Below are positions 4,803-48,900 of a DNA stretch of 64,000 bases, in pieces (the first letter of the stretch is position 1; each line of letters opens with the position of its first letter). The notes under the pieces were generated by a model. It made no database searches. It saw only the letters and a list, made by a program, of their open reading frames with translations, and was not told where the DNA came from. Position numbers and translations under genes: made by a program. This DNA comes from Siphonodentalium dalli (lineage: Eukaryota; Mollusca; Scaphopoda; Gadilida; Siphonodentaliidae). Location of the stretch: NCBI GenBank assembly GCA_032622095.1, contig CP136061.1, positions 20,586,991 through 20,650,990 of the forward strand, read 5' to 3'.

Positions 4803-4932
4803 TTATGAAATATACCAGTTCCATTTGTCATTTTCTTCATCATCATCACTTGGCTCATCAACAGCACCTTGTGAGAACTCAGACAGTACAGCAGGTAAGC
4901 CCCGCATTGAATTTACCTTCCGCCATATTCTC
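4803..4932 (-). CDS. Gene 1 coding exon 7 (terminal)
   Basis: The acceptor TTTTGTCTTTTCAG precedes G-AGA-ATA-TGG. The 130-nt coding part encodes residues 467-508, with an acidic cluster SDDDEEND and the end KWNWYIS followed by TAA. The leading single base completes the split Lys codon from exon 6. The exon is too short and too spliced to show as a minus-strand frame by itself. Confidence 0.75.
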
Positions 4933-7900
4933 CTGAAAAGACAAAATCATCCGTTTATTTCAATTGTAAGTCATTCCATGGTCACTGTTAGAGAAATTCT
5001 CATTTACATGATTGCTATGACTAATCGGCCATGATAAGGTGGTGTTTTCATTTTATTTTTGAATTTTATTTTCTCTTGGTCTCAAGTTAACCTCTGACAT
5101 AGCTATCCCTTGTAAGTTGTAATGTAATCGACTGTTATATGATGGCTGTACAATATTCAAGATGGTGCACTTTATTTAACCCTTTGCCAACTGGATACTA
5201 GCTGATGAGTAGTTACTCGATTAGCTATTTGTTGAACATATTTATGAACACCCCTACAAATGAATGAATGGGAATACAGGGAGAAACATCATGGGTATTT
5301 TTTCTGCCTATTGTCTGCCCATAATGTATAGCAAGAGGATCAGCAAATAAGTTTATCATCTTCTTAAATGTAGTGATCTACTTTATGTTGTACATGTATG
5401 AGTATACATGTACATAATAGTCACTTTTCACACATTACACTTGATCCAGCCCCATACAACTGGAATGTTAGGGTTCATGTATTTTGCACACTAATGGCCA
5501 ATATGGATGGAATGTTGGTAAAATACATGTATAACAAAAATATTTGTAAAAAAAAATTATTTACAAAATCAATAAAATGAAAACCGTTGGGGGCGTTTGA
5601 AGAGGGTCGGGCATGTTACCAAAACACAGGTCCATCAAGTTTTTTTTGGGCCTTAGTATTTATGACGTGGGCAAATAGGAGTGAAGCTTAGAGCGAAATA
5701 GATCGTTTTTTTAAATATATTTTAAACTGGCATTCTACTAATGGTTTTAGTGTGAAAAAACATCCCAAAATCACAATGACATCTTTTAGGCAGGTTGGCG
5801 TCCCTGATTACCTACGCAATTTGCATATATAATTATGTCACCTACCTAATAAAACTACATTGACCTAATAAAGTGACATTGACGTAATAAATGTAACGTT
5901 TATTTGGATGGCTTTATGTAGACAATAGAGGTAGTAAGCGGTGAATAAATATTATTTTTAAGGCATGTGCTCTATCAAACTTGTTATCTCAGTATATGAT
6001 AACGTTTATGACATTTGAGAAACTTTCATATAATGAGACACCTATATATAACACTAAGTTTAATAGTTAAACAAAATCTATGGATGGTGTGAATTTTCCA
6101 CGTGGCTACGATTCAGACCAGGGCTTATCCCTTTAACCCTTTACCCAACAGAAGGGCCCCTGTGCCAATGCATTCTCTTATATATAAGAGAATGCATTGG
6201 CTTTAATGCATTACAAATTATAAAATTGTTAAAGAATGTAAGAAAAAAATGGTAAAAAGTGTCAAAAAAAGTTTTTTTTTAGGCCAATGCATTCTCTTAT
6301 ATATGCGAGGCGACCTATGGTCGACTCGCATATATAAGAGAATGCATTGGCCACAGGGCATAACTGTAACTATCACAATGTGGTCAAGGAGCCGGTTCCA
6401 ATGATATCCATATGTGTATGGTTCTATTGAGACAGACCGAAGATATTTTAGGCTGTTGAAGCTTTATTTGGCCGGTTTTGGCCGGTTTGTTGGGTAAAGG
6501 GTTAACCAGTCATGATCTAAAAGACAATCATAAAATAGTAAACCATTTCTATACTAATATTTTGTTGACAAGTAGTTCCTATAGGAAATGTTCAGATAAT
6601 AAGTTCAACAAACTGGAGCTCCATGGTTAGCAGGGGTCAATTTAAACCCTTTACCCAACAGAAGGGCCCTGTGCTTTACCCAACAGAAGGGCCCTGTGCC
6701 AATGCATTCTCTTATATATGCGAGTCGACCATAGGTCGCCTCGCATATATAAGAGAATGCATTGGTTTAACACATTAAAAATTATAAAATTGTTAAAGAT
6801 TGTAAGAAAAAATGGTAAAAAGTGTTAAAAAAAGATTTTTTTTAGGCCAATGCATTCTCTTATATATGCGAGGCGACCTATGGTCGACTCGCATATATAA
6901 GAGAATGCATTGGCACAGGGTATAACTGTAACTATCACAATGTGGTCAAGGAGCCGGTTCCAATGATATCCATATTTGTATGGTTCTATTGAGACAGACC
7001 GAAGATATTTTAGGCTGTTGAAGCTTTATTTGGCCGGTTTTGGCCGGTTTGTTGGGTAAAGGGTTAATGTTTTAAATTTGTATATCATTATGCAGTACTT
7101 CATAGATTTAGAATAGTATTCCCTACCAATACATGTTTTTTCATTGTAAATTGTTTAGTAGAAATTGGAAATCGGGCCCGGGTGGTTAGTGCATCGGACT
7201 TGCCTTCCCTGTCAACGCAGCAAGATGAGTTAGCAGCCCACCGCTGGTCTAATGTGAATTTCATGCAGCAGTGGCAAGGCCAAATTGATTTACGTTTAAT
7301 TGTCTTATGTTAATATTTCGTACCAAGTGTGACCCTTGAGCAAGGTCGCTTCTATGGTGTCTGTTTTGCACCGCCCATGCATTGAAAAGGGTACCTAATT
7401 ATGAGCAGTGAAAGATATTGTCTGTATGCTAACCGCATTGTCGCTGGGAGCAGTATATGGTTATTGAGTGTTCAGGCTCATCAGGGTAATGTAAAAAATG
7501 GATCGATTATTAAATGACCATTGGTCGTTTGTTGAACTTAATATCTGAACATTTGTCATCAATGAATATGAATCATTCACCCCTTGTATTATCTGTTTTT
7601 CTATCTGTTGTCTGATTTTATTATCTGAATACTACTCTAAATGAATAGACCATTCCAATGAAGACTTTTATAACTGAATGGGAGAATCCATTCGGTATAG
7701 AAAGGGTTAATTAATATAAATTGGTCTCACTTGGAATCCCTTTCGCTGGTGTCTGCATCCTGTATTGCCTCCTTCAGGTCCGTCTCCATTTCTCTGATGC
7801 TGCCCTCAAAATATTCATTCTGCTTCAATAGTTTCTGCACCTCAATCTATCAATGAGAAAGTAAGAATGTGATAAAAGACAATTGACAGCTCTCCGTTAT

Positions 7901-10900
7901 AATATGTGATCCTAAATTTCATCCAGTGCCTTTCAATTGTTAATATGATATGTTAAGAGTTCATGTATTTTTCAATTGATGCTCAATACGTATGGACATG
8001 TCGGGGGGGGTTGAAAAAAAATTACAGGATACAAGGACCGGGTGGGTGGGTGTCCCCCGAGCCCGAATGCAGATTTGTTCTGATGTCATGCAATTTTTTT
8101 CCAAAATCATTTCTAAGACAAATTACAGCTTCAAAATGAATTGAAACAATCAGATTCATATAGTAGTGCATGCTATAGCCTTATACAAGTGAGGGGGGGC
8201 TCTATATTTTAATTTTTTGTCCACAATTTCTCCCTTTAAAAGTTGAAACCATGGGGTGGGTCCGGTTTTGGTCGAGGAAAAAAAATCCATTCTCATCTTT
8301 TCTCATAGTTTATCATGGCTTTTTTAACTTATTATACATAGAGGATACCTGCGTGTTTTGAGTGAATACCGGAAGTATCTCATGAGTGGTCACAGTGAGA
8401 TACTGGAATCATCACGAGTGGCCTTTAGGCCACGAGTGATGATTCCAGTATCTCACTGTGACCACGAATGAGGTAATTCCGGTATTCACTCAAAACACGA
8501 AGGTTTTCTTTGTATTATATGCTGTTATATGCGCTATTTACTAAAATAGATCGAGGAATTAATTCAAAATCGAACTGATTCCGATTCACATCGGCAATAC
8601 AATTTTTTCCACCCAGGTCTGGGACACCCACCCCCAAAATTGATGAAATCTTGTAAATTCTACTAAATAATGTGTTTTGGCAGGGTAAGGGTCTCTCATT
8701 GTGTCTGCACCGGAACTGAGAGAACGCTGATCAAGTACACCCACAAAAAATAAACAAACAAAGCACATGGCTGAAAAATATGCCAACAAAACCAGTGACA
8801 AAACCTTTAAAAACCCAAATATTTATGGTTATAAAGGTAAAATACCCACTTTAACAGGATAGTTGTGTCCCTTATTAGCAATAGGTTAAAATATGTACAT
8901 GTGTAAAGTAAAAACACAATCAATTTGATTAAATAAACAGTACAGTTCCAGTCCTCTCCATGTGGGAAATCACTGGTGAGCAATGAGGAGCTCTCCTTAA
9001 AATCATTCTAGGCGAGTAGCTCTCCTACAAAATGTTGAGGCGAATAGTATCCCAGCAGGAGATGCCGAAGGCATCTCCCAAAGGCCTGAGGGGGGAGAGT
9101 ACGGGAGGGGGTCAGGGGGCCTCCACCGGAAAATATTGAAAATTAGATGCTCTGAGATTGAATCTGGAGCCTTTTAGTGCTCCAATCAATGAACAACACG
9201 TTATTATGTGACTTAAGTCACTTTAGTCACTGTAGTCATGTATCGACATCGACCATGTACTTCGACCACTTGGTCACTGTATTTATTGTTTATTCAATAT
9301 CTTGACTGATATCATTAATATAAACAAATGAGGCCAATGGTTTTTCGGCTTTTTGACAGCTGGCCACATTGCTAATAGTACACAAGCAAGTAAGTTGGTA
9401 TATTTGAAATAAAGTTATCTGATATATTACGCACATTTGTAGCATGTTTATTCTGAGTTATCGACAGTATTTTATTGAACCACGTGGTCTCTCTGTTTGT
9501 TGTGCAGAAACTTACAGTCCCGGGTGGGGTGTCCCAGACCTGGGTGAAAAAAAACTTACGCTCCCAGGTGGCGGGTCCCCAAAACTGAAAAACACAAAAT
9601 TTCCACCTTGTATCTGTAATTTTTTTCCTGACCCCCCCCTGGACATGTTGGTAAAAACATACCGGTATCAAACAAAAATATAAAATTAAAAGATAAAAAA
9701 TTCCAAAAAAACATTTCTCACTTTTTATGTCATAATATCAGAAATTGAAAAAATATGTCCAATGCGGGCCATTTATTTCAATGTGGCGGTGGTTGAAAAA
9801 CAAATATTTAATTTTGGATAGCATTATGACTTCTTGATTTGGACTAAATCAGTCCAGAATATTTGATAGATTAGACAATGAAGAAGAAGATGGAAGATGG
9901 ACTTTATATCACCAAAACATAGCGCATAATCCCCATAAATACAGATTTCCAATCCCAAAAAGTTGGATCAAAATTGCAAAAGGGAACACACATTGAACCA
10001 TAACTTATATACAACAAATTATAATTAACTACAATTGTTTTCACCAAAATATAAACTACATCATTTTCCAAACTTCACTAACTGCATGTTTTGAAATTCA
10101 CTGACATCATTTGAATATAGTTTACAAATATACTAAATAAAGGTTCAAACCAGGCACATCCATTTAACCCTTTCATGACAGGAGCTTCCTGTGCCAATGC
10201 ATTCTCTTATATATGTGAGTCGACCATAGGTCGCCTCGCATATATAAGAGAATGAATTTGCCTAACAAATTTTATATTATTTTTTATAATTGTCAAAAAA
10301 CGGATGAAAACAAATTTATAAAATATTGTTAAAGAATGTAAGAAATAATGATAAAAAATGATAAAATTTTTAAAGAATGTAAGAAAAATGATAAAAATTT
10401 ATAAAAAATGATAAAAAAAATGATAAAAAATGATAAAATTGTTAAAGAATGTAAGAAAAAATGACACAAAATGATAAAATTGTTAAAGAATCTAAAATAT
10501 GGACAATGGACAACACACACCATCATTCTTATATATTAATTAATTGCAGTGACTGCCGATGACGAAATCGTTTTCGTTAGTTTATCGCCGATAAAATCGT
10601 CCCGATTCGAGTAGTAAATACTTATAATTTAGCGTAGTTCAGACTATGTTTTCTATGGCGTGGTGCGGTCGATTTGCTAGATATTTTCGGTGATGTTAGT
10701 AGAATGCTACATTCCTCCAGTTGGCATAGCACCTGAATACTAACTTATCAGTTTCACACACCCGAACAAGTACATAATATGTCTTTAAAGAATGTAAGAA
10801 AAAATGATAAAAATTGTTAAAGAATGTAAGAAAAACTGATAAAAGATTGTTAGGCCAATGCATTCTCTTATATATGGTCGACTCGCATATATAAGAGAAT

Positions 10901-13900
10901 GCATTGATACAGGGTCTTTAATGTTGCACCAGCACAGCTCCCATCATGAAAGGGTTAACTTACCTCTGTTTCTTTGATACATTGCTCGAGGTGAGTGCAC
11001 ACAGTAAGAGGAACATACTCCTCTCGTAAGTTTGACCTCAATTCATTCAGAGTGTCAAGCTTTTCAAGAATAGCTGCCTTAGTATGCTCAATCTCATCTG
11101 CTAGTTCCACTGGAGGTTCGTTTGAATATGATGTGGACACAATATGTGGCATTTCAACTGGAATAAATCAAAGCAATTGAAGATACAGTATCTTCACACG
11201 ACCAAAGCTACAAATTACATTTCCCATATGAATTGCAGAAGTCTAAAATAATAGGTCTGAACCAAGAAGTCATTTGAAAATGCAAATATTGTTAGATACT
11301 TTTCTATCAATTTTACTCGTATATATAGTGTCACAAAAATAAATAACTTATCAGAGATGAGCTATCATCCGGTGCATACCCCTAGTGTGGGCATACCTAT
11401 AATCTATCATCCGGTGCATACCCCTAGTGTGGGCATACCTATAATCTATGACTAAGATAATCAGGCAGATGGAACCAAAAATCAGAATTTTCAGATAAAC
11501 AAAGATGAATAACTCTAGAACAAAAAACCTATGTGCCAATGCATGAATTTTTTTTTTTAAAAGGGGGGGGGGGGGTTATAATAAGAATTGCTTAATACTT
11601 ACATTACCTAGATATCATTCACTTTTGCATTTATAAACTGTTGGACTATACCGGTAGATGTCATATTCAGGTGGTGAAATACCTTTTGAGATCATTAGAG
11701 CACTCAATATTCCCAGTAATAAAAATTACAAATGGAAATTACCCCCAAAAGATCACCAAAAATCTTTACTTACTACCTCTAAAAATTAGATTGAGACTTT
11801 AATTAAAGACATGTTATAAACTTATTTCAGTGATCAATCTGATAAGTGAGTACTCAGACACCTTGTCCTTTCCCGCTGAAAAAATGTAGCATTCAACTAA
11901 TATTACCGAAAATTGTAGCCATGACGATCGTACTATGTTATAAAATACAACATCTGAACTCCGAACAAATGTATAAACACCTTAATTTGGGATGAATTTT
12001 CACAGATAAACGAACAGCAATGATTCTGTGATATAGAGTTGCTGCATCTAATTCATATATAAGAATGGTGTTGCATGCTACTAATTATGATATAACATTG
12101 ATGAAAATATTTTTGTGTTCCCATTTGATCACCGGGTCAGTTGATTATTTCACATCATAAAAATCATTATTTAATATCATAAAATCCACACTTATTGCAT
12201 AAATCGTCATTTTTCACACAAACCTGTTTGGTCTGATGAGTTTGTTAGGTCTTCTTTTTCTTCCTGAACCAGTCTCCGAAGCCTGTAAGTATAGATTAAA
12301 AAAATAATCTAACCAGTCTCCGAAGCCTGTAAGTTTAGATTAAAAAAATAATTTAACCAGTCTCCCTAGCCTGTAAGTTTAAATTAAAAAAATAATTTAA
12401 CCAGTCTCCGAAGCCTGTAAGTTTAGATTCAAAACAAAATTTAACCAGTCTCCCTAGCCTGTAAGTTTAGATTTGAAACAAATGTTTATTGGCACTATAG
12501 TCTCCGAAGGCTGTAAGTCTGGATTACAATTTTTATTTTATTGGCATTATCATCTCCGAAGCCTGTAAGGTTAGATTTAAAACAAAAATTTATTGGCACT
12601 GTAGGTTCCGAAGCCTGTAAGGTTACCGGTAGATTTAAAACAAAAATTTATTGGCATTATAGTTTCCGATGCATGTAAGGTTAGACTTAAAACAAAAATT
12701 TATTGGCACTGTAGGTTTCCGAAGCATGTAAGGTTAGATTTAAAAAAAAAATTATTGGCACTGTAGGTTCCGAAGCCTGTAAGGTTAGATTTAAAAAAAA
12801 ATTTTATTGGCATTATAGTTTCCAAAGCATGTAAGGTTAGATTTAAAACCAAAATTTATTGGCATTATAGTTTCCGAAGAATGTACGGTTAAATTTAAAA
12901 CAAAAATTTATTGGCACTCTAGGTTCCGAAGCCTGTAAGGTTAGATTTAAAAACAAAAATTTACATAATTTAATAAGAGGTATCTCAAAACATACATAGG
13001 CAGAATATGTCCGCACAAATTTGTCGATATAGTGCTGAAAATACGTTTTGTTCAATAATTTTGAGATTGTTTCATTTGTGTCAATTCAAATCAGCGGTTG
13101 TGTAAAAATTGCACATGTAGACCATGGGAAGAACATCTACAGCTGTCGTCGCTCTGAAAGATAGATCACTTTGGTGACTAAAACAAAGAGAAAGAAGTGC
13201 AAGCCAGAAGGCGACTAATTAAATGAAAAATTATATTTTTAGTTTATATTAATTTAATTATATGTATGAGATTTTGTGGAGGTACTCTCTCTCAGTATGA
13301 GTGAATCAGAGTGATCATTGCTTCAATGTGAGTGAACAAATCCATGTGATAAAACTAATTGAAAAACTAATTCTGCTATGATATGGATGGCTGAATGTTG
13401 AAATGTTTCCCTGGATAAAATAAAAACAAGAGGTGGCATCAGAGATGCTGTGTCTCGTTTTCGGTGGCTTACCGCCGGTGGCTACCACCAATTGGTGTGC
13501 ATCAGTATCGGTAGACTAATTAATAGGTAAAATCGAAAAATGACTAATTAAGGGCCATAACTCTATAAAATTTTATCAGGCCAGGCTGGTTTTCGAACTC
13601 GTCCGAAATATTCTTGGCAAGTACGTCTATTCCAAATTTTAAACAAATCGGAGGACATTTGTTGAAGTTATCGCGCTAACGAGCTAAAAATTCACGAAAA
13701 ATGACTAATTAAGGGCCATAACTCTATCAAATTTTATTGGGCCAGGCTGGTTTTCGAACTCGTCCAGGATATTATTGGAAGACACTTATATACGAAATTT
13801 TAGTTGAATCGGATGACGTTTGTTGAAGTTATCGCGCTAACGAGCTCAAAATTCGTACAAAATGACTACTTAAGGACCATAACTCTATCAAATTTTATCG

Positions 13901-16900
13901 GACCGGGCCGGTTTTCTAACTCATCCGAGGTATTCTTGGGAGACACCTATATATCAAAATTTCAATCAAATAGGATGATGTTTGTTAAATTATCGCGCTA
14001 ACGAGCTGAAAATTTGTGGAAAAAATGACTAATTAAGGGCCATAACTCTATCAAATTTTATCGGACCTGGCCGGTTTTCGAACTCGACCAACATATTCTT
14101 GGGAGACACCTATATACCAAATTTCAATCAAATCGGATAACGTTTGTTGAAGTTATCGTGCTAACGAGCTGAAAATTCGTGAAAAATGACTAATTAAGGG
14201 CCATAACTCTATCAAATTTTATCGGACCAGGCCGGTTTTCGAACTCGTCCGAGATATTCTTGGGAGACACCTATATACCAAATTTCAATCAAATCGGATA
14301 TCGTTTGTTGAAGTTCGCGCTAACGAGCTGAAAATTCGTGAAAAATGACTAATTAAGGGCCATAACTCTATCAAATTTTAATGGATCAGGCCGGTTTTCG
14401 AACTCGTCCGAGATATTCTTGGGAGACACCTATATCCCAAATTTCAATCGAATCAGATAACGTTTGTTGAAGTTATTGCGCTAACGAGCCTAAAATCAGT
14501 GAAAAATGGCAAAGGGCCATAACTCTGTAATAAATGTGCGGACAAACCCGATTTTTTTGTCTGCAGCTTACGTGCATGGATATGTACTCACACACCAATA
14601 AACACACCGTCAATAAACGGTTGAGTTATAAGCAAAACAGGCCACCCGCCCGCCCGCCCGTCCGCCGCCCCTCATCAAACTATAAGTCGAGTTTTGGAAA
14701 AAAACTCGACTAATAAAAAGAAATAGAGTTGATTTTATCTATTCTTTTTTTCTTCTTCATAAATCAACTAAATTTCATTATTTTATAAATTTTTTATTTT
14801 AACATTGAGCCATCTATATAATGGCGGATCAAGTTTTTCAATCAGTAAATTTATCACATATCAGCTGCATGACTGGTCTTATAATGGGGAAAATTAGAGG
14901 TAAATAAAAGTTAATATCTGTTGATGACGAACAAATTCAATAAATTCAATATGACTTGCTAATGACTTGCACATGAGATAGAATCACTGACATTATATCT
15001 ACCTCTCATTTTCTTCAAGTTTATCAATGGCTTCATTCTCCAGAATGCGCACTCTCTGTTGTGCATGATAAAGCTCCTTAGGTTTCGATGTTCCTAATGA
15101 AGACATCTGCTCCACCTGGTTCTGCAGGAGATTGTGCTGCGACTTCTGATTATCCAGCATCTTCGCAATGTGACTGTCATACTCAGTCTGAAATTTTATT
15201 ATAATATTCTGAAGAAAATAGAATGTCTTCAAATAGGTGAGCCGTTTAACATTAGTTTACATGGACTGATTCTTTTAATATTATTGATGCCCAGAGTTCG
15301 CGCTGGACCAGAAAATAGAAGGGCGAAATCTTGGGCCATTCTCAATATTTTTGGGCCTTTTGAATATTTCTATTTTTTTAAATTTATATTTCAGGAATTC
15401 AAATCTAAGTAACAATAAAAACAATTGGGTGTAATTTATTGAAATAACTTGTTATTACGCAAGATATCTATTATAATTATAATGTAAGCAGCGGTGACTC
15501 ACAACTATTTGAAACAACATGTGCTCGTATTGTTTACTGATCTGCTGTGTAATAGGATATGTAAACCATTGTCTGTAGAAGAAAAATCTGGGGCTATTTT
15601 TCAGACCATTTGTAAATTTTCAGGCAAATAACCCAAATGGCCTCCGGCAGTGTGAACACTGTTGATGCCCAAGCCAATCTGACACTACATTAGTCAAAAC
15701 CAATTGCAAGTAAATGAAAAAATACATGCAAACTACATCAATCGTAATACATATACATAAGAAATACTCCTCAAGAATTAATGTGATAAGAATAAGTATA
15801 AATGAATATAATTAATAACACCCAAAAAGTGTGTGGAGAGGTTAATCACACATAAATTGTGATGTAATGGTTCCACATCAACCCCTCATACAACTAAGAC
15901 CATCTGTGTTCATAATGCAGCCCAATGACTGTACTTTTTGGAAAAATCACTTAACCCTTTACCCAACAAAACGGCCAAAACCAGCCAAATAAAGCTTCAA
16001 CAGCCTAAAATATCTTCGGTCTGTCTCAATAGAACCATACAAATATGGATATCATTGGAACCGGCTCCTTGACCACATTATGATAGTTACAGTTATGCCC
16101 TGTGCCAATGCATTCTCTTATATATGCGAGTTGACCATAGGTCGCCTCGCATATATAAGAGAATGCATTGGCCATTTACCATTTTTTCTTACATTCTTTA
16201 ACAATTTTATAATTTTTAATGTGTTAAGCCAATGCATTCTCTTATATATGCGAGGCGACCTATGGTCGACTCGCATATATAAGAGAATGCATTGGCACAG
16301 GGCCCTTCTGTTGGGTAAAGGGTTAAATGATAACATCTAATTTGACCCTTCCATGACTGGTACTTCCATGTGCCAATGCATTCTATATATTTATTGATGT
16401 TCGCCAACGTGTGCATAGTGCACGGCCGGTAACGAGTTAACGAAGTTGTCCAGTTTGTTTTGGTCATTCAAACTGGGTCAATACTGCGCCGTCTGAACGA
16501 TGTTCAAGGCAATCATAATGATGAGCTCGTGTGAGCTAATTCACACGACTGATTTTGCATTGGTTAAACTCGCTTGACACGGTGGTCAAGCTTCACTCAA
16601 CTCTTGAAGTTTTGTGTTGTATCCCCCCCCCACCCACCCCATGATTGGGAGATGATTATAACAATTGTAACAATATAATATTCATCATTTCATGTCTTAT
16701 TGGTTATATGACTGATCATCTGTGAACGATATTTATCGCTACACTTCACGTTTGTCCATTAAAGTTTACTTTTAACATCATGCATTCGTTGTAGTTATTC
16801 CATAAATACTTTATGTTCGTTCGAGCTGCAAGCGAGTTAGAACATAACTTATATATGTGAGTCTCCATTAGCAAGCCTCGCAGGCCTAACAATATTTCCT

Positions 16901-19766
16901 TGACCCTGTACGCCAGTGCATTCTCACATATATATGCGAGGCTCCCTATAGACTTGCAAACATAAGAAAATGCACTGGCACAGGATTTTTAATGCTGCAC
17001 CAGCGCAGCTTCCATCATGAAAGGGTTAATTCAACTAGTTAGCACTTCTTACAGGGGCATCTCAGAAAAGTTAAAACCATCTTTAACTCTCTTGGTTCAT
17101 CGTCATCAAAATTATCCACGAATAGGTCTGTAATGTCCATGGACAAAACATACTAACTGAAATCCAAAGAATTGTAAACAATCTGAATGTTGAGGTTGTG
17201 TTGTTCTCACCTTGATACACTTTAGTATATACCCAAATGTAGGAGTTTCTTGTATAACATCTTCCAAACTGTTGCTGAAGATTTGAAGCTTGTGGAAGTT
17301 TGGACCCATTCCACTCAACTGAGCATGTTGCAGATCCTGAAAAATATTCTTTAAATTTCACAATTTATTTGATATGTTTTGACACACACAAAATTTGAAC
17401 GCTTGAAAAACTTGCAATTGCAATTAAGTTAATATATAAATGTACTATTTCATTTTCCTGAACATTTATATTTGGCGGATTTCCTGTCTTACAAAAGTCA
17501 GAAAGGCTATCTGTTTCACTATTTTTAGGTTACATTATTTTTGTTATTATTTATGTGACATAACCACTAACAAATAGGTGTGAATCAACTATTCATAAAG
17601 ATCGAGATTCCACTCTGAACTCCTCAATGGAGTGTTCCACATTGCTTTAACCAATTTCATGATGGGAGCTGCGCTGATGCAGCATTAAAGATCATGTGCC
17701 AGTGCATTCTCTTATATATGGGAGTCTCCCAAAGGGATCCTCACATATATAAGAGAATGCACTGGCTTACAAGGGCAAGGTAAATATTGTTAGGCAAATG
17801 CATTGGCACAGGGTTTTCACAAAATTTCAGGAAGCTCGAGTATTGGAAGGATTAAAAAAAGTGATCAAGGTATTCCAACTAACATATGGTAGTTTTGGTA
17901 CTTCGGTAAAAATATTTAAAAACTTCAAAATAAAAATAATCCCTTGATTACTGAACTTCAACATACAATATCACTTTAATTATTAGAATGAATATGTCTG
18001 AATTAACCATTTATCATCAGGCATCAACCACACACACCTATTTGAACTTCTAATATTATTTTAGCTCACCATAGTTTAACCCTTCCATGATGGGAGCTTC
18101 CTGAAATTTTGCGAAAACCCTGTGCCAATGCATTCTCTTATATATGCGAGTCTCCAATAGGGAACCTCGCATATATAAGAGAATGCATTGGCCTAACAAT
18201 ATATACCTTGACCTTGTAAGCCAGTGCATTCTCTTATATATGTGAGGCTCCCTATGAGAGACTGGCATATATAAGAGAATGCACTGGCACAGGATATTTA
18301 ATGCTACACAAGCGCAGCTCCCGTAATGAAAGGGTTAAAAAGGGATCACAGTATTCTCATTAACATAGTTTTGGTACTTTGGTAAAATATTTAAAAACAT
18401 CAGAATAAAACTAATCTCTTGAATACTGAACTACAACATACAATATCACTTTAATTTTTAGAATGAATATGTCTGAAATAACCATTTCTCATCAGGCATG
18501 ATCCACATCAACCACACACACCTGTTTGAACTTCTAATATTATTTTAGCTCACCATAGTAGGATGGTATCACCATATTCACCCTCTGGGAACCTCATTCT
18601 GCTTCTACTTATAGGCCTCAACTTCTATGGGAGACCTAGGATCAGATTGAAGTTCTCCAGTTGAAGTTTGTGATGTTCACCAGCTTCACCTATTAGAAAC
18701 CTTGATTATGCATTTTATCTTCTGCAAATTAGGGGATTTTGACACTTCTCAGAAGGGAAAAAGTAACTAAAAACAATGTTAATTTGAGACTATAGATACT
18801 TCCCAGAAGATGAGGCCTAAGCAGAATAGGGTCCCCAGGGGGTGAATTTGGTGATGCTAGCCCACTGTGTGGGATAGCATTACTAAATTCACCCTCTGGG
18901 GAACCCATTCTGCAAACTATTTGCAGGCTTGGTGTCGTATGTGTAATACACATACGACACCAAGCCTGCAAATAGTTTGCAGAATGGGTTCCCCAGATAA
19001 ATGTAGAAGCAGCTGAATTGAAAACAATTGGATATATACCTGATTGAGCCTTTCTTCAAGGTGTTTCACAGCCTTCTCCCCAGACAACACGTTTTGTTCA
19101 GAACATTCTTGTTTCCTCAACACATCATATTCAAATTCTTTCATTTTCTTGAACTGATCGGCTTTAGTGACTCCAACATCATAAGTCGGCTGGTACGAAT
19201 GCCTCAGCTTGAGCATGTGCAGATTTGAGGCAAGAGAGTTATCTAACATGTCTTCGGATTCAACATCTTTTAACACTGACCGAGACGTTGGCAGTAAAAG
19301 TTCGTTCATATTCATCTCCTCAATGAGAATATTATCCTGAACTTTACTATAGAGTGATTTGGCGGACGACGAGTAAGCTTGTCGTTCCTTTGATTGTTTC
19401 TTTTTAAATTTTGCATTACTTGATGGACTAGATCTGCTTGGTGCTTTCTTTTTTAATTTTCCATTTGGAACTGCAGCTGTGGTCCCCATACTGAACTGAA
19501 ATAATGCTTCATGCATATGTGAATCAGAACCAGATGGTAATTTTTCAGTTGATTCCATGCTCCCTTTTTGTTTCACACATTGTGTTGGTTGGAGTGATGA
19601 TTTCCATGGCTTTCTGGTGGAAGCAGAGTTTGATTGATGAATGTATGTCTCATTCAAGTGTCCCCCAGCAAAGTCATGAATATCTTTCTTATGAACATTT
19701 TCAATGTTGTCAAGAATATTGGAAAGTTGTCTTGATGATGTAAACTTATATGCCATTGTGTATTTC
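4803..19766 (-). CDS. Gene 1: coiled-coil protein with TSNAXIP1-N-like region, C6orf118-like (7 coding exons)
   Basis: Assembled gene. Joining the exons 19756-19040, 17336-17211, 15187-15003, 12282-12224, 11157-10964, 7846-7731 and 4932-4803 gives 1,527 nt and 508 aa. All introns are GT-AG and every phase matches. Residues 100-125 are Lys/Ser-rich and low in complexity. From about residue 205 the protein is charged and helical. At residues 258-292 it carries the pattern F-x-x-x-L-x-x-V-I-x-x-x-P-T-F-G-x-I-L-x-x-I-K-T-E-Y-D, which is how I recall the TSNAXIP1 N-terminal domain family (TSNAXIP1, C6orf118). Coiled coil continues to about residue 465, and the C-terminus is acidic (DDDEE) and ends in WNWYIS. 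Vertebrate C6orf118 is of similar size, so it is my first choice; TSNAXIP1 itself is the alternative. These proteins are testis/cilium-associated and their molecular role is unclear. Identity rests on memory, not on a search. The start ATG lies 10 nt inside an exon whose acceptor is TTTTTTCAG, so a 5' UTR exon must lie upstream. Confidence 0.65.
5040..6132. other. Gene 1 intron 6, distal part
   Basis: This is intron sequence (the intron spans 4,933-7,730). A degenerate family-3 element end (TTTAACCCTTTGCC, with GTTGAACATATTTATGAAC) is visible near 5177-5300. No exon is supported. Confidence 0.4.
6133..6505. mobile_element. TTAA-bounded MITE, family 1
   Basis: TTAACCCTTTACCCAACA at the left faces TGTTGGGTAAAGGGTTAA at the right, with TTAA at both edges. 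The interior holds two hairpins built from CCAATGCATTCTCTTATATA and its complement. A conserved tail includes GGAGCCGGTTCCAATGATAT and TTTGGCCGGTTTTGGCCGG. The left hairpin here has lost most of its loop. Confidence 0.85.
6642..7067. mobile_element. TTAA-bounded MITE, family 1
   Basis: It has the same ends and tail as the copy at 6133, and both hairpins are intact. The first 45 bp include a short direct duplication (CAGAAGGGCCCTGTGC twice). It is nested inside a split family-3 element. Confidence 0.85.
7165..7480 (+). repeat. SINE-like sequence with a tRNA-type A box
   Basis: GGGTGGTTAGTGCATCGG at about 7178 resembles the tRNA D-arm/A-box region used as a pol III promoter. No good B box (GGTTCRANTCC) follows at the expected distance, so this is not a functional tRNA. 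It could be a tRNA-derived SINE or a chance match. Confidence 0.3.
7731..7846 (-). CDS. Gene 1 coding exon 6
   Basis: The acceptor TTTCTCATTGATAG precedes ATT-GAG-GTG-CAG. The 116-nt exon encodes residues 428-465 plus two bases of a Lys codon: a charged helical stretch running from IEVQKLLKQNEYFEG to SERDS. The donor is AA|GTGAGA. Phase in is 0 and phase out is 2, matching the terminal exon. Confidence 0.75.
7980..8345. other. Intron 5 of gene 1, homopolymer-rich
   Basis: G-rich and T-rich runs such as GGGTGGGTGGGTGTCCCCCG occur here, with related stretches near 8600 and 9520. Probably old repeat debris; no exon is seen. Confidence 0.35.
8352..8500. repeat. Long inverted repeat (foldback), about 74-bp arms
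   Basis: The left arm begins CGTGTTTTGAGTGAATACCG and the right arm ends CGGTATTCACTCAAAACACG. The centre is GGCCTTTAGGCC. The arms pair along almost their whole length. It is probably a foldback MITE within intron 5 of gene 1. Confidence 0.8.
8501..10163. other. Intron 5 of gene 1, repeat debris
   Basis: It includes degenerate copies of a GGTGTCCCAGACCTGGGTG motif in both orientations (about 8605 and 9520). Small open frames here (for example 9372-9671 minus and 9444-9683 plus) overlap each other across this motif and are not genes. Confidence 0.35.
10164..10958. mobile_element. TTAA-bounded MITE, family 2, enlarged, abutting a splice donor
   Basis: It starts TTAACCCTTTCATGACAGGA and ends CATCATGAAAGGGTTAA. 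A hairpin module of the CCAATGCATTCTCTTATATA type lies near each end. The centre is expanded by AAAATGATAAAA-type simple repeats and an unrelated block (about 10,540-10,780). The right TTAA (10,955-10,958) is at intron positions +6 to +9 of gene 1 exon 5. Confidence 0.75.
10964..11157 (-). CDS. Gene 1 coding exon 5
   Basis: The acceptor TTGATTCCAG precedes TT-GAA-ATG-CCA. The 194-nt exon encodes residues 363-427, a Glu/Leu-rich helical segment (for example ELADEIEHTKAAILEKL). The donor GAG|GTAAGTTAA runs straight into a family-2 MITE. Phases are 1 in and 0 out. Confidence 0.78.
11362..11445. repeat. 42-bp direct repeat, two copies
   Basis: CTATCATCCGGTGCATACCC followed by CTAGTGTGGGCATACCTATA occurs twice head to tail without change. 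Confidence 0.9.
11446..12223. other. Intron 4 of gene 1
   Basis: AT-rich, with a T8/G10 homopolymer junction near 11,552-11,575. No feature is recognised beyond that. Confidence 0.4.
12224..12282 (-). CDS. Gene 1 coding exon 4 (59 nt)
   Basis: It reads G-CTT-CGG-AGA-CTG-GTT-CAG and encodes LRRLVQEEKEDLTNSSDQT (residues 344-362). It is flanked by the acceptor ACTTACAG and the donor G|GTTTGTG. The first base completes the Arg codon begun in exon 3 and the last base completes a Val with exon 5. Its first 16 bases and its acceptor are repeated many times upstream in intron 3. Confidence 0.75.
12267..12950 (-). repeat. Tandem array carrying copies of the exon-4 splice acceptor
   Basis: Units of about 44 bp (first five) and then about 52 bp each contain, on the minus strand, an A/T-rich run, then CTTACAG and GCTTCGGA. 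That is the 3' splice site and first bases of exon 4. The copy nearest the exon is the exon itself. About 13 further copies follow, progressively diverged (TTCCGAAGCCTG, TTTCCGATGCATG, and so on). All lie in intron 3, upstream of the real acceptor in the direction of transcription. Confidence 0.85.
13055..13529. other. Intron 3 of gene 1, nothing recognised
   Basis: AT-rich sequence without a supported exon or repeat. Confidence 0.35.
13530..14545. repeat. Tandem array of about 160-bp units, 6 copies plus a partial
   Basis: Each unit starts near AAAAATGACTAATTAAGGGC and includes CATAACTCTATC, GGCCGGTTTTCGAACTCGTC, TTGGGAGACACCTATATACC and GTTATCGCGCTAACGAGCT. Copies differ by point changes. 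A tail follows with CCGCCCGCCCGTCC and a closing AGTCGAGTTTTGG / AAAACTCGACT inverted pair (to about 14,715). This kind of repeat is common in bivalve and gastropod DNA as I know it. Confidence 0.85.
15003..15187 (-). CDS. Gene 1 coding exon 3
   Basis: The acceptor AATAAAATTTCAG precedes ACT-GAG-TAT-GAC. The 185-nt exon encodes residues 282-342 plus two bases of Arg343: it completes the I-K-T-E-Y-D motif and continues with a Gln/Glu-rich coiled coil (VEQMSSLGTS, then ILENEAIDKLEENE). The donor is AG|GTAGAT. Confidence 0.8.
15240..15950. other. Intron 2 of gene 1
   Basis: No repeat or exon is recognised. The plus-strand frame 15,134-15,412 only overlaps exon 3 on the other strand. Confidence 0.4.
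15951..16326. mobile_element. TTAA-bounded MITE, family 1 (reverse orientation)
   Basis: It starts TTAACCCTTTACCCAACA, with the CCGGCTCCTTGACCACATTA block, two hairpins, and the end TTGGGTAAAGGGTTAA. Small open frames on both strands here are hairpin translations, not genes. Confidence 0.85.
16341..17029. mobile_element. TTAA MITE family 2, interrupted
   Basis: The left end TTTGACCCTTCCATGACTGG is degenerate (TTGA instead of TTAA). The right end is CATCATGAAAGGGTTAA. The hairpins are partly lost. About 500 bp of unrelated sequence (about 16,390-16,890, with a C9 run) separate the halves. Confidence 0.5.
17211..17336 (-). CDS. Gene 1 coding exon 2
   Basis: The acceptor ATATTTTTCAG precedes GAT-CTG-CAA. 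The 126-nt exon encodes residues 240-281 and carries the most diagnostic part of the protein, LEDVIQETPTFGYILKCIK. The donor is AAG|GTGAGA. Both phases are 0. Confidence 0.82.
17646..17856. mobile_element. TTAA MITE family 2, degenerate copy
   Basis: TTTAACCAATTTCATGATGG at the left and GAAGCTCGAGTATTGGAAGG at the right flank one clear hairpin (17,699-17,765). The second hairpin is lost. Confidence 0.6.
18076..18338. mobile_element. TTAA-bounded MITE, family 2
   Basis: TTAACCCTTCCATGATGGGA faces CCGTAATGAAAGGGTTAA. Two hairpins are present: the first with a CCAATGCATTCTC stem, the second with CCAGTGCATTCTC. A good reference copy of the family. Confidence 0.85.
18565..18996. mobile_element. 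MITE family 4 with a perfect 50-bp-arm palindrome at its edge
   Basis: It contains the family blocks TTCACCCTCTGGGAACCTCA and GAGACTATAGATACTTCCCA and a palindrome at 18,816-18,912. From 18,896 to 18,996 the sequence CTGGGGAACCCATTCTGCAA and the 30 bases after it are mirrored exactly by the complement, with one base at the centre. Confidence 0.7.
19040..19766 (-). CDS. Gene 1 coding exon 1 (with start codon)
   Basis: The acceptor CTTTTTTCAG lies at 19,767-19,776 and is followed by 10 nt and the ATG at 19,756. Coding part 717 nt, 239 codons, phase 0 at the donor CAG|GTATAT. The encoded N-terminus (MAYKFTSSRQLSNILDNIEN) is followed by a Ser/Lys-rich middle and a helical end (FEYDVLRKQECSEQNVLSGE). 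The frame continues about 40 codons into the intron, but the splice donor and the phase fit with exon 2 show the true end. Confidence 0.82.
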
Positions 19767-27839: not shown

Positions 27840-29113
27840 AAGACTGATAACTGTATCGCCCTCAGTATGATAACTGTATCGCCCTATATATGATAACTGT
27901 ATCGCCCTATATATGATAACTGTATCGCCCTATATATGATAACTGTATCGCCCTATATATGATAACTGTATCGCCCTATATATGATAACTGTATTCCCCT
28001 ATATATGATAACTGTATCGCCCTATATATGATAACTGTATCGCCCTATATATGATAACTGTATCGCCCTATATATGATAACTGTATCGCCCTATATATGA
28101 TAACTGTATCGCCCTATATATGATAACTGTATCGCCCTATATATGATAACTGTATCGCCCTATATATGATAACTGTATCGCCCTATATATGATAACTGTA
28201 TCGCCCTATATATGATAACTGTATCGCCCTATATATGATAACTGTATCGCCATATATATGATAACTGTATCGCCCTATATATGATAACTGTATCTCCCTA
28301 TATATGATAACTGTATCGCCCTATATATGATAACTGTATCGCCCTATATATGATAACTGTATCGCCCTATATATGATAACTGTATCGCCCTATATATGAT
28401 AACTGTATCGCCCTATATATGATAACTGTATCGCCCTATATATTATAACTGTATCGCCATATATATGATAACTGTATCGCCCTATATATGATAACTGTAT
28501 CGCCCTATATATGATAACTGTATCGCCCTATATATGATAACTGTATCGCCCTATATATGATAACTGTATCGCCCTATATATGATAACTGTATCGCCCTAT
28601 ATATGATAACTGTATCGCCCTATATATTATAACTGTATCGCCATATATATGATAACTGTATCGCCCTATATATGATAACTGTATCGCCCTATATATGATA
28701 ACTGTATCGCCCTATATATGATAACTGTATCGCCCTATATATGATAACTGTATCGCCCTATATATATGATAACTGTATCGCCCTATATATGATAACTGTA
28801 TCGCCCTATATATATACTGATAACTGTATCGCCCTATATATGTACACAGACTGATAACTGTATCGCCCTATATATGTACACAGACTGATAACTGTATCGC
28901 CCTATATATGTACATTGAGACTGATAACAGTATCGCCCTATATATATACTGATAACTGTATCGCCCTATATATATACTGATAACTGTATCGCCCTATATA
29001 TATACTGATAACTGTATCGCCCTATATATATACTGATAACTGTATCGCCCTATATATGTACTGATAACTGTATCGCCCTATATATGTACAAAGACTGATA
29101 ACTGTATTGCCCT
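27840..29113. repeat. 23-bp satellite array, about 55 copies
   Basis: The unit is CCCTATATATGATAACTGTA plus TCG. The first 950 bp are nearly identical copies. Toward the right the unit lengthens, with TATATACTG or TGTACACAGAC inserted between copies. Confidence 0.97.
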
Positions 29114-29159
29114 ATATACATTGAGGTAAAGGAGGTTGAGATCATATTACAAGATTTCA

Positions 29160-37054: not shown

Positions 37055-37178
37055 CCTTTTAGTTCTGAATATTCAATTATAAAGAATACATTTGAATGGT
37101 GTATATTTTATTTATTAGATATTCAGAGCATGTGTGTTCAGATGACAGAGAGAGAAATGCCACATGGATACCCATTCA

Positions 37179-38293
37179 TTAACCCTTTCTTTACTAAATG
37201 GAATCTCCCATTCAGTTATCGGTGCTGTGAAATCGTGGATGTTGGCTAATAAACTAAAATTAAATAGTGACAAAACTGAAGTAATGTGGGTGTCTAAGTC
37301 GTCATACATAGAAAAGGTGGGCATAGATGTTATGACTATTGATGGTAACCAAGTTTATTTCTCAGATAGCGCGAAGAACCTTGGTGTATTTTTGGATAGA
37401 TCACTCTCTATGACATCACATATATGGAAGGCAATATAAATTGAACTTCGAAAACTGGGTCAAATGAGGAAATACATAAACACTGATCAGCTAAAAACAC
37501 TTGCTTCATCTCTGATTCTCAGTCGACTTGACTATTGCAACTCTCTTTTGACTGGTATACCATCTATCCAAATTACCAGACTTCAGCGTCTGCAACACAC
37601 TGCTGCAAGGATAGTTCTGTGTCATAAAAGATCTGACGACATAGATGAAATGTTGCAAGAATTACATTGGCTACCTGTGACAGATAGGATTATTTATAAA
37701 CTTGTTACATATGCATATCAAGCAATCCATGACTCAAAAGCTCTTCCAGCATACTTCAGTGATATCCTTGTTCCGTATGTCCCATACTGATCACTTCGTT
37801 CAGAGGACAAACTTCTTTTGACACCATCTGGTGCTAATTTGATCACGGTTGGCTACCGATCTTTCAAAGTAACATGCGCAAATGCATGGAATCCTCTGCC
37901 ATTGAACATAAAAGAGTCACCATCTCTTGACGACTTTAAAAAGTCATTGAAAACTTACTTGTTTGCGCGGCGTTTCAGAAAATGACTTTGATATTGTGTA
38001 TATTTATATTTCATGTTTATGTTTATTGGGGATAAGCGCTATACAAATATTATTATTATAAAGCTATAAAATGGAATGGTCTATTATTCATTTGAAGGGA
38101 TGTTAAGGATATACAAGCAGACATCAGCCAGATGAAAAAAAGATAACACAAGGGCAGAAGAATTCTTATTCATTCGTGGGAAATGTTCAGATGATAAGTT
38201 CAACAAACAACCTAAGGTCGTTTGTTGAACTTATTATCTGAACATTTCCTAAGAGAACTAATAATCAAAGAGTATTTAGTATAGAAAGGGCAA
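37179..38293. mobile_element. TTAA MITE family 3 interrupted by a LINE fragment
   Basis: The left piece (37,179-37,219) is TTAACCCTTTCTTTACTAAA followed by the family end. The right piece (38,061-38,293) resumes with AAGCTATAAAATGGAATGGT and ends TATAGAAAGGGCAAA, a decayed border. Together they match a reversed family-3 element. Confidence 0.75.
37220..38060 (+). pseudogene. 5'-truncated L2/CR1-type LINE, reverse transcriptase C-terminal region
   Basis: The conceptual frame runs from about 37,220 to 37,984 with internal stops at 37,437 and 37,787. Recognisable pieces in order are KSWMLANKLKLNSDKTE (end of the RT domain), then FLDRSLSMTSHI, then LSRLDYCNSLLTGIP, then LQRLQHTAARIVL, ELHWLPVTDRI and a final SLDDFKKSLKTYLF. 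These belong to the C-terminal part of CR1/L2-like non-LTR elements. No endonuclease or catalytic YXDD part is present. The 3' end GCGCTATACAAATATTATTA is typical of such elements. It is dead, and inserted into a family-3 MITE. Confidence 0.85.
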
Positions 38294-42900: not shown

Positions 42901-45900
42901 GAAATGGAATATAGATGGGTAAGAGTCATTTTGGGGTCATTCGGACAAAAAACATCGCCGCCAGCAGCCATCTTGGATTTTACTCTTTGTATGACTAAAT
43001 CCTTTAAGCTACAGGTTGTACCTTTAGTTTGATAATCTTAAAATTTGTCATGGATGTTAATAATGACATGTAGATGGGAACGAGTCATTTTGGGGTCATC
43101 GGCCAAAAAACATGGCCGCCAGCTGCCATCTTGGATTTTACTCTGTGTATGACTAAATCCTTTACTGCTCATTTTTACACTCCTTTTTAATCTCTCTATT
43201 CATTGCTCATCACAAAAAAATTACCTTCTTTACAAAGTTGAGCTACAGTGTCATTGACACTTTCATTTGTGGTTATTTTTGGTATTTGTCGGCAATTAAT
43301 TCTCCTTAAAGCTGTATTTCGATCATCAGAAAGCATGATTTGGAACAGTGAAACATCTGCTAAATCCACCAGTGTTGCGCGCTCATCACAATTTCACCGA
43401 TTCATTTCGCAATAGAGTTAATTCATGACGTCACAGAGTCCCGATAAAAAAGTGATATTGCACACTTGGGAGTCGAATATGACATTCGGGAGTCCAATAT
43501 TACTTTTTCCCGAATTATCACGTGACGGCTTTTGCCCAATCAGAAATAGTGTTAGTTATGGGATGGATAATATTAACACATTCACTGCTGACTACAAATT
43601 ATCTGGTACCTTTTGCATGTAACTGAATGGGTATCGGTAGTGAACGTGTTAAAATATTTTAAACCAGTCCTTGAGCTGGGAGTGATTGCTCTTGCATCCG
43701 TACACAATTGCAATTTAAATTAACGGGTGCTAAAGTCACTCGTCACTCTTTATCAAAATGCGTATGGTGACTTTAATCGTTGATTCAATATTGAACTGTT
43801 TGAAGGTTTATTAAAGCCTTTCCCATCTCAATTCAATTAATATTATGGGCATGTGAAAATGTAACTGGACATAGGTCTATCCCACAATGACATTTTGTTT
43901 GAGAAAAAACAAACTTATGATTATATGGGTGCAATTACACCCGTCTTCTAAAATGTGGGAGCAAATAAGTGCTCTCAATGTGTTTTCCTCATGGGATGTA
44001 CAGAACCATATACAATACCTCCTGACAAATTCATTTAATAGTTTCATCTAACATGTTATACCTTAGGTATTTCGGTGGATCACAGATATGATGATAAACA
44101 GATAAAACTGAATATAATCTGCCTTAAAACTTATCATCTTTTTATCATAGTGGAAGTAACTCTGATGAATTTCATGGTTTAGAATACAACAAGTCCTCAG
44201 AAAACAGAAGTGGTAATTGAATGAAGAGGTTCAGTCTGGATATAATAGACCAGACACTGAACATGTTCACATTTTATCTGCATATAATCCTCACCTTCGC
44301 TTTCGTGTTGGGTGGTCAGAGCACCAGTGACGGAGAAATATGTTTCAGCCATTGCCTGCATTGTTGCACTTTGTGGCCTTTCTGAAATCATATGGAGAAT
44401 ATATAAATATTTAACCCTTTCATGACTGGAGCATCCTGAAATTTTGCGAATACGTTATGGCAATGCATTCTCTTATTTATGCCAGTCTCCCATAGGAAGC
44501 CTTGCATATATAAGATAATTAATGCATTGGCCTATAAATATTTACCTTGACCTTGTAAGCCAGTGCATTCTCTTATATATGCAAGGCTCCCTATGGGAGA
44601 TTCACATATATAAGAAAATGCACTGGCACATGATCATTTAATGCTGCACCAGCGTAGCTCCCACCATGAAAGGGTTAATTAATATATAAGAAGCTAAGGC
44701 TAGTTCCTTCAACTCAATTTTCTTTCTTAACATCATGTGATGTGTGTAATCTGGGTGGCAGTGTTGTCTGAGAAGTCTAGTTTTCAGTGAAATATCTTTG
44801 CCATTTTCTAGAGACTAATCAGGGACCAGCCTAGAGGTCTCAAATTTTGTTATTAGGGAGAAGTGGACTGTTATTAGGGAGAAGTTAACTGTTATTAGGG
44901 AGAAGTGGACTGTTATTAGGGAGAAGTGGACTGTTATTAGGGAGAAGTGGACTGTTATTAGGGAGAAGTGGACTGTTATTTGGGAGAAGTTAACTGTTAT
45001 TAGGGAGAAGTTAACTGTTATTATGGAGAAGTTAACTGTTATTAGGGAGAAGTTAACTGTTATTATGGAGAAGTTAACTGTTATTATGGAGAAGTTAACT
45101 GTTATTAGGGAGAAGTGGACTGTTATTAGGGAGAAGTTAACTGTTATTAGGGAGAAGTTAACTGTTATTATGGAGAAGTTAACTGTTATTAGGGAGAAGT
45201 GGACTGTTATTAGGGAGAAGTGGACTGTTATTAGGGAGAAGTTAACTGTTATTAGGGAGAAGTTAACTGTTATTAGGGAGAAGTTAACTGTTATTAGGGA
45301 GAAGTGGACTGTTATTAGGGAGAAGTTAACTGTTATTAGGGAGAAGTGGACTGTTATTAGGGAGAAGTGGACTGTTATTAGGGAGAAGTGGACTGTTATT
45401 AGGGAGAAGTTAACTGTTATTAGGGAGAAGTTAACTGTTATTAGGGAGAAGTTAACTGTTATTAGGGAGAAGTGGACTGTTATTATGGAGAAGTGGACTG
45501 TTATTAGGGAGAAGTTAACTGTTATTAGGGAGAAGTTAACTGTTATTAGGGAGAAGTTAACTGTTATTATGGAGAAGTTAACTGTTATTATGGAGAAGTT
45601 AACTGTTATTATGGAGAAGTGGACTGTTATTATGGAGAAGTTAACTGTTATTAGGGAGAAATGGACTGTTATTAGGGAGAAGTGGACTGTTATTAGGGAG
45701 AAGTTAACTGTTATTAGGGAGAAGTTAACTGTTATCAGGGAGAAGTTAACTGTTATTAGGGAGAAGTGGACTGTTATTAGGGAGAAGTTAACTGTTATTA
45801 GGGAGAAGTGGACTGTTATTAGGGAGAAGTGGACTGTTATTAGGGAGAAGTTAACTGTTATTAGGGAGAAGTGGACTGTTATTAGGGAGAAGTGGACTGT

Positions 45901-48900
45901 TATTAGGGAGAAGTGGACTGTTATTAGGGAGAAGTGGACTGTTATTAGGGAGAAGTGGACTGTTACCAGGGAGAAGTGGACTGTTATTAGGGAGAAGTTA
46001 ACTGTTATTAGGGAGAAGTGGACTGTTATTAGGGAGAAGTGGACTGTTATTAGGGAGAAGTGGACTGTTATTAGGGAGAAGTGGACTGTTATTAGGGAGA
46101 AGTTAACTGTTATTAGGGAGAAGTGGACTGTTATTAGGGAGAAGTGGACTGTTATTAGGGAGAAGTGGACTGTTATTAGGGAGAAGTGGACTGTTATTAG
46201 GGAGAAGTGGACTGTTATTAGGGAGAAGTGGACTGTTACCAGGGAGAAGTGGACTGTTATTTGGGAGAAGTTAACTGTTATTAGGGAGAAGTTAACTGTT
46301 ATTAGGGAGAAGTGGACTGTTATTAGGGAGAAGTTAACTGTTATTATGGAGAAGTTAACTGTTATTAGGGAGAAGTTAACTGTTATTAGGGAGAAGTTAA
46401 CTGTTATTATGGAGAAGTTAACTGTTATTATGGAGAAGTTAACTGTTATTAGGGAGAAGTGGACTGTTATTAGGGAGAAGTTAACTGTTATTAGGGAGAA
46501 GTTAACTGTTATTAGGGAGAAGTTAACTGTTATTAGGGAGAAGTGGACTGTTATTAGGGAGAAGTTAACTGTTATTAGGGAGAAGTGGACTGTTATTAGG
46601 GAGAAGTGGACTGTTATTAGGGAGAAGTTAACTGTTATTAGGGAGAAGTGGACTGTTATTAGGGAGAAGTGGACTGTTATTAGGGAGAAGTGGACTGTTA
46701 TTAGGGAGAAGTGGACTGTTATTAGGGAGAAGTGGACTGTTATTTGGGAGAAGTTAACTGTTATTAGGGAGAAGTTAACTGTTATTATGGAGAAGTTAAC
46801 TGTTATTAGGGAGAAGTGGACTGTTATTAGGGAGAAGTTAACTGTCATTAGGGAGAAGTTAACTGTTATTATGGAGAAGTGGACTGTTATTAGGGAGAAG
46901 TTAACTGTTATTAGGGAGAAGTTAACTGTTATTATGGAGAAGTGGACTGTTATTAGGGAGAAGTTAACTGTTATTAGGGAGAAGTTAACTGTTATTATGG
47001 AGAAGTGGACTGTTATTAGGGAGAAGTTAACTGTTATTAGGGAGAAGTTAACTGTTATTATGGAGAAGTTAACTGTTATTATGGAGAAGTTAACTGTTAT
47101 TAGGGAGAAGTGGACTGTTATTAGGGAGAAGTTAACTGTCATTAGGGAGAAGTTAACTGTTATGAGTGAATTTCAATTTACACCTCAACATCACCCTTCT
47201 ATGATTCAATAAGTATTATGCAACACAAAAGCCAATTTATAAAACCATTATAGTGAGTAAGAACACCACTATTCAATAAATATACTTTGAACATGTTATT
47301 GGGACATATGCATAATGGAATGGGAAAGAAGTCACTTCTCCCTGGGACAAAACTAGGGAGATGTGGCACATTTTAGGGAAAATACGTCTCCCAAGTCGCC
47401 CTCTAGGCTGGTCCCTGAAGACTGATATGGCAACATTTCAAGTTCTTATATGAATATTGATAGTGTATCTCTTCTGGGCCACAATTACAACAACATAATT
47501 TTGATAAAACCTGATTTCAAGACTACAAATGGCTTTTTGTGAAAAAAAAACGGACAAGAAAGATTGAGTAAATTATTTGTCTATAAAATAAAGTTTTGGT
47601 TCTCAGGCTCCGCCGCATTGAATAAAAAGGGCCGCATTAGGCCTTTTTATTGCAATGTCTGATGTTATGACAAAAAAACTTACGAAAAAATAAATTTGAA
47701 AAAGAATTTTTTTTTTTTTTGGGGGATTTTATCAACATGTCCATAGCAGATAGTGTGCATTGAGCTCTAACATGTAATGTGTTAAAAAGTGACTTGCAGG
47801 CTTACAGCATGAAGTAGATGACTACAATTAAGAAAATGATTAGCTGATCCTCATGCTCTTCTTACGATTAGTCATTGTGAACAACTTACACTAATTGTAA
47901 CTTTATACAATTGAAAGGCACAGGACTAAATTCAGGATCACATATTAGAATGGGGAGGTATCAGTTTTTAGACAACAATAACAGTATACAGTTGTCGCCC
48001 GTTGTCGAGGGAGACATTGAGATTTGTCACCCGCTCGAGAACGGACATTCCGTTCTCGAGCGGGTGACAAATCTCAATGTCTCCCGAGAAGAAGGGCAAC
48101 AACTGTTTTGTTATCCGATTATACCACAGAAAATATCCTTGCCATCCACACGCGCGATGTTGCACTGAGTCATGAGTGCTTTCTTTCCCGATTATGTATA
48201 TTTTCAGTAACTACTTATCGTCCCATAGGATTTCTGTTCCATAAACGATAGTCAAGCTTTTAAGCGTTTGATAATCCGCGTTTATTTACGATCATTTTGG
48301 TGGTCAAATCGTCAATATCAGTCAATGCAATGTAAACCAATAAGCCATATAGGTATGTTCTCGTCTTCTGCAAGGCATATTCTATGTCGTCTTGTGCGCG
48401 CAATTTACTCGCGATGTTAATTTCATAACGGTCTTCCCCGAAAGCTATTGGGAAGTTGTCAATTTCATTAATGTACATTCATATGTGTCGGTGCTCATGG
48501 CGATCCTCACATAAAATACTTCTATGATCACATTGCAGACATCGCGGAAGATAAGAGTACAGTACCATTCATTCGCGACAAACGTATGTATTACGTTGTC
48601 TACCAGCGAACATGTATAACCAACCAACCTAAAGGGATCCTCTCTTTCAATATTGCATCATAATGTCGACATGAACACATTGAATCACCGAGATGTTGCG
48701 ATGTAAAAAGTAAATAATAACGCTTGTCCGATAAAAGTATCAACTAAAAAAATTTGAGAATATTAGTGTTCACTAAATATATGCAAATTAGCAAACACCA
48801 CAACTGGTGTGTTTTGCGAATCCGTGGGGTATATAAGATCTATGATTTTTTTGTACGTTGTAGTGATGCGAAGTAGATGAGTTACTGCAGTGTGTGTTTG

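Follow-up and report, generated by a model that had tools for sequence, protein, structure and literature searches.

Thirteen degenerate copies of an acceptor and exon start precede exon 4 of a TSNAXIP1-like gene: an unusually long case of a rare repeat kind

The third intron of a TSNAXIP1-like gene ends in a real repeat array, in which the acceptor and the start of exon 4 recur in 13 degenerate tandem copies upstream of the genuine ones, as read on the minus strand. The array has a single location within the 64-kb stretch of DNA analyzed here (the window), and exhibits the structural features of the “mirages” described in amphioxus. It is thus an unusually long member of a rare class of repeats that has been described before. 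Most likely it is a recurrently expanding and neutral mirage. The fuller account, which is held with good confidence, is that the array was born by duplication of an exon boundary, grew in two layers, is nearly neutral and leaves its last copy in use. Tandem duplication of the boundary between intron 3 and exon 4 would have founded a minisatellite, which may then have been lengthened and partly homogenized via slippage or unequal exchange. The repeats themselves would be non-coding and probably close to neutral.

The TSNAXIP1 family comprises proteins of the sperm or cilium type. In the model of the host gene (Table 1), the seven exons join as a single open frame of 508 codons, read on the minus strand, and each of the six introns has a GT donor and an AG acceptor. 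Exon 3 ends at 15003 in this open model, in agreement with the donor position proposed in the initial annotation. The first 427 residues match the whole 111-position profile of TSNAXIP1_N (PF15739) at 62.9 bits, above the Pfam cut-off of 27, and the gene is thus TSNAXIP1-like. The frame of exon 1, searched alone against Pfam, gave no match, and domain-edge Pfam scans of the gene's tails gave a few further matches, all sub-threshold. A search of the first 427 residues against solved structures returned two matches at chance level (E 0.93 and 0.98). Pfam also returned NYD-SP28 below its threshold (15.4 bits vs 22.1).

Table 1. Coordinates of the host gene, the array before exon 4 and associated elements within the window
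Feature	Position	Strand	Description
Host gene (gene 1)	4803..19756	-	seven coding exons; 508 aa; TSNAXIP1_N domain
Coding exons of gene 1	19756-19040, 17336-17211, 15187-15003, 12282-12224, 11157-10964, 7846-7731, 4932-4803	-	
Exon 4	12224..12282	-	59 nt, begins GCTTCGGAGACTGGTTCAGG; real acceptor at upstream edge
Intron 3	12283..15002	-	2720 nt; array at its 3' end
Proximal block (c10-c13)	12283..12458	-	four 44-bp units, 84-93% alike, exon copied through +16 (GGTT)
First exon base, c10 to c13	12458, 12414, 12370, 12326	-	real site at 12282
Distal block (c01-c09)	12459..12932	-	nine units, 51-58 bp
First exon base, c01 to c09	12932, 12880, 12828, 12776, 12725, 12672, 12614, 12562, 12510	-	
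Stretch before first copy	12933..12963	-	intron side, TAAATTTTTGTTTTTAAATCTAACCTTACAG
Palindromic MITE-like element variants	6140-6920, 10200-10910, 16100-16310, 17690-17800, 18120-18300		identified by eye

The count of about 13 copies before exon 4 which was initially noted stands, since 13 upstream copies can be placed by position; further motif matches at 12760, 12708 and 12598, which are CCTACAG within units, were left out of the copy count. From the distal end towards the exon, the copies are spaced by 52, 52, 52, 51, 53, 58, 52, 52, 52, 44, 44, 44 and 44 bp. The range of 44 to 53 bp originally given for the units therefore holds for 12 spacings and fails for one, the 58-bp unit, which contains a 6-bp insert. 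Two blocks were recognized by TRF, one at 12267-12473 (period 44, 4.7 copies, 92% matches) and one at 12456-12963 (period 52, 9.6 copies, 81% matches).

The rarity of the repeated motif outside the array is reflected in several counts. With up to 3 mismatches allowed, the 15-mer CTTACAGGCTTCGGA occurs 14 times in the 740-bp array stretch, the real copy included, as against a mean of 0.006 and a maximum of 1 in 1000 first-order Markov resamples of this stretch, and twice in the remaining window, both strands together. The heptamer CTTACAG is found 10 times on the sense strand of 12224-12963 (real copy included) vs 5 times on both strands of the remaining window, and the 10-mer CTTACAGGCT nine times in the array stretch (real copy included) vs none in the remaining window. 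Within 3 kb, the exon 4 acceptor has 12 near copies (up to 6 mismatches in 24), while the gene's remaining 11 internal splice sites have none at the same threshold. It is highly improbable that the array belongs to a dispersed satellite, or to a transposon-borne repeat, of which a copy landed at exon 4: tandem arrays are indeed plentiful in the window (48 TRF rows, some of them overlapping), yet when a 44-bp and a 52-bp unit were compared by BLAST with the remainder of the 64 kb, no match exceeded 19 bp (best E 0.11). Comparison of an array unit with viral contigs, which is a weak test, gave no match. Two repeat patterns, one sought in viral contigs and one in genome contigs, were likewise without a hit, and neither GGGCCATAACTC nor its reverse complement was found in a text search of the literature.

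The array has two layers, a distal family of about 52 bp and a proximal family of 44 bp. The proximal units c10-c13 contain GAGACTGGTT, which equals the exon through base +16, with c10 and c12 deviating from the exon at CTAGGG. This hexamer is common to c10 and c12, and CTTCGG to c11 and c13, an alternation which hints that a pair of units may have been duplicated together. The distal units c01-c09 share approximately the first 12 exon bases, followed by a ATAGTGCCAA-like stretch which is absent from the exon; in the 52-bp units, the 10 bp after the shared bases are not recognizable as exon. The units c01-c07 are 77-94% alike, with the exception of c05 vs c06 (71%), and c08 is the most diverged of the distal units, at 55-73% to the others of its layer. 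Identity between the proximal and distal blocks is 49-67%. In a FastTree tree of the units, c10-c13 form a group with a support of 0.88, as do c10 and c12 (0.91), the support of the remaining nodes being 0.33 to 0.98. The stretch which precedes the first copy, TAAATTTTTGTTTTTAAATCTAACCTTACAG, closely resembles, with one T more, the intron end in which most of the distal units finish, and the array thus starts within the intron end.

The initial remark that the exon-proximal copies are closest to the real one is borne out: identity to the real site (-28 to +16, ungapped) is 0.95, 0.89, 0.89 and 0.77 for the nearest four copies, and 0.55-0.75 for the remaining nine. Nearness and identity are correlated (Spearman 0.64, p 0.019), the copies not being independent of one another. 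Growth of the array would have proceeded in at least two layers, of which the proximal family is probably the younger; its identity through exon base +16 suggests that the exon edge served as the template for a further round of copying.

Within one sequence, array and exon stand in a symmetrical relation, and the 52-bp units hold sequence that the exon lacks. Both points accord with an opposite order of events, in which exon 4 took its acceptor and opening bases from an intron minisatellite, the exon edge being derived by intron sliding. This order is unlikely, as the conserved domain is completed, by a few bits, by the first codons of exon 4, and an open frame is kept solely by the copy joined to the exon. 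The TSNAXIP1_N score is 64.0 bits (profile 1-108) for a protein ended at the end of exon 3, 67.4 bits (profile 1-111) when LRRLV is added, 67.1 bits with all of exon 4, and 62.9 bits (profile 1-108) when exon 5 is joined instead of exon 4. The exon 4 residues therefore carry the match to the last profile position. Among eight tails placed after exon 3, the scores are 67.3 bits for LRR and LRA, 66.0 for LKE, 65.6 for LAR, 65.3 for ARR, 65.1 for GST, 64.4 for AAA and 63.4 for EEE. The profile thus favors L and then R at the first two codons of exon 4, by a few bits, and since LRA equals LRR, the third residue is not probed by the domain score. Together, the domain-completing codons and the open frame of the last copy are modest evidence which favors the exon as the parent and the array as secondary. 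Amplification of an exon edge into a minisatellite, as first proposed, is the best reading in view of the open exon 4, the completed domain and the lack of a second array in the 64 kb.

Minisatellite-like tandem duplications of an intron-exon boundary have been described as mirages in the amphioxus globin genes BflGb6 and BflGb9 and in Adh3 (PMC3087553). In BflGb6, the unit consists of the 3' end of an intron and the 5' part of the next exon, measures 150-160 bp and numbers 6 copies on one haplotype and 3 on another (PMC3087553). The array before exon 4 is likewise built from an intron 3' end and the start of the next exon, although it has 13 units of 44-58 bp and lies in a different gene. Splice signals are kept in many, not all, of the amphioxus units, which evolve in concert within a cluster (PMC3087553); here too they are kept in part of the units, with AG in 9 of 13, and the division into two sub-families would accord with concerted evolution. 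The lancelet PGBD5 gene also contains imperfect tandem repeats that overlap splice sites, yet these have a 108-bp repeat, are described as a triplication and belong to a different gene (PMC3902484). More loosely related are the internal tandem repeats of human genes, which change the structure of genes and can give rise to introns (PMC2812944). In potato, an intron is reported to have been gained through tandem duplication (PMC4974935). Earthworm metallothionein genes, in which intronic minisatellites occur and one clone has fourth-exon duplications absent from the transcript, were considered as a parallel and set aside, as the available text of that report (PMC12783039) does not describe repeated splice boundaries.

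In the portions of the literature available to the search, repeated acceptors or mirages were found in amphioxus and lancelet and nowhere else, although further cases may exist. Multiplication of a gene's splice site by a minisatellite, as here, is reportedly the subject of a 1995 paper in NAR, the site there being a donor rather than an acceptor. If the host is not a lancelet, exon-edge minisatellites of the mirage kind would not be confined to cephalochordates. Such a wider range, if true, would bear on how frequently introns are lengthened or originate by local tandem duplication.

The choice among the repeated acceptors was considered with an approximate weight matrix. On this matrix, the six acceptors of the gene range from -4.43 to 5.76, and the real exon 4 acceptor scores 4.43, ranking third among the 132 AG sites in intron 3 and exon 4. 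It is outscored by two sites in the part of the intron outside the array, at 13410 and 13177, and the matrix alone is therefore no predictor of splicing. The AG is kept in 9 of the 13 upstream copies, which score -0.47 to 3.15 (ranks 5-26) on the approximate matrix; copies 2, 3, 5 and 6 have AT and are not canonical acceptors. It had been claimed at the outset that each copy is a possible decoy. For the nine AG copies, a decoy role is a reasonable, if unproven, idea; as a statement about every copy the claim is too strong, given the four that lack AG and, on the same approximate scale, the higher score of the real acceptor than of all nine.

Over -28 to +16, two bases set the real site apart from its nearest decoy, one at -9 (T for A), which gives the real site an extra pyrimidine, and one further up. 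A row of near-identical 3' splice sites before one exon, with a decoy so close to the real site, thus offers a ready test of acceptor choice by the spliceosome. GAA-type hexamers are frequent in exon enhancers; all nine of those tested occur once in exon 4 and none in the array, although the list was picked after the exon had been seen. A yUnAy motif lies at -14 before the real site and before copies 12 and 13, and at -42 before copy 1; apart from the latter, no yUnAy branch site was found at the usual distance for any copy. The branch site was therefore rejected as a discriminator, since two of the decoys have the -14 motif as well. Hiding of the decoys by RNA folding was also rejected, as in 20 of 20 comparisons with shuffled sequences the sense strand (740 nt) did not fold any better (z 3.37). 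The last copy would be expected to serve as the acceptor in use, presumably the exclusive one, since no other acceptor in the array is as strong locally, and since this copy alone leads directly into the true exon body, which bears a purine-rich run (CAGGAAGAAAAAGAAGA, immediately beyond the repeated portion).

When exon 3 is joined in the gene model to each of the upstream starts, all 13 junctions lead to a premature stop, 10-103 nt past the junction and 28 nt in for the three nearest copies; skipping of exon 4 gives a stop at once. Any use of a decoy would thus end in a premature stop, which raises the notion of a splicing rheostat, whereby the decoys compete, divert some transcripts to premature-stop isoforms and allow copy number to set the output of the gene. 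This notion is quite unlikely. It draws on the AG retained in nine copies, of which eight score 1.47-3.15, within the range of the gene's acceptors, and the ninth -0.47 (approximate matrix), as well as on the premature stop reached from every copy. The loss of AG in four copies speaks against it, stops are expected by chance in AT-rich repeats, and regular splicing is reportedly undisturbed by the amphioxus mirages, the Adh3 data and RT-PCR suggesting normal splicing according to the authors (PMC3087553). A more elaborate proposal is very unlikely: a copy-number-dependent rheostat, made of nearly functional acceptors that each end in a stop and differing in length between individuals, would tune the amount of a protein of the sperm or cilium type, while repeats would have arisen recurrently at the exon edge, in at least two generations.

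The array can also be read on the plus strand, where 13 donor-like GTAAG[TG] sites (real copy included) are found in 12224-12963, vs none on the minus strand. That it functions there as a row of donors is scarcely credible: these sites arise because ACTTACAG is merely the reverse complement of CTGTAAGT, and the gene with the conserved domain lies on the minus strand (genes of the plus strand having been considered via the list of open reading frames).

Additional repeats and elements occur in the window. Intron 3 contains a second, unrelated tandem array at 13535-14526, with a 161-bp unit in 6.2 copies (87% matches, TRF), which includes GGGCCATAACTCTATCAAATTTTAT. Variants of a palindromic element, e.g. 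CCAATGCATTCTCTTATATATGCGAG...CTCGCATATATAAGAGAATGCATTGG, are present in the introns of gene 1 and appear MITE-like by eye (Table 1). At 27843-29118, a 23-bp satellite, TGATAACTGTATCGCCCTATATA, exceeds 40 copies and grades into a 28-bp variant. Reading frames resembling pieces of a non-LTR reverse transcriptase, as judged by eye from the list of open reading frames, lie at 37146-37790. At 44848-47163, a 21-bp unit forms a 2.3-kb array of 110 copies, through which each strand has a stop-to-stop open frame (785 and 797 codons).
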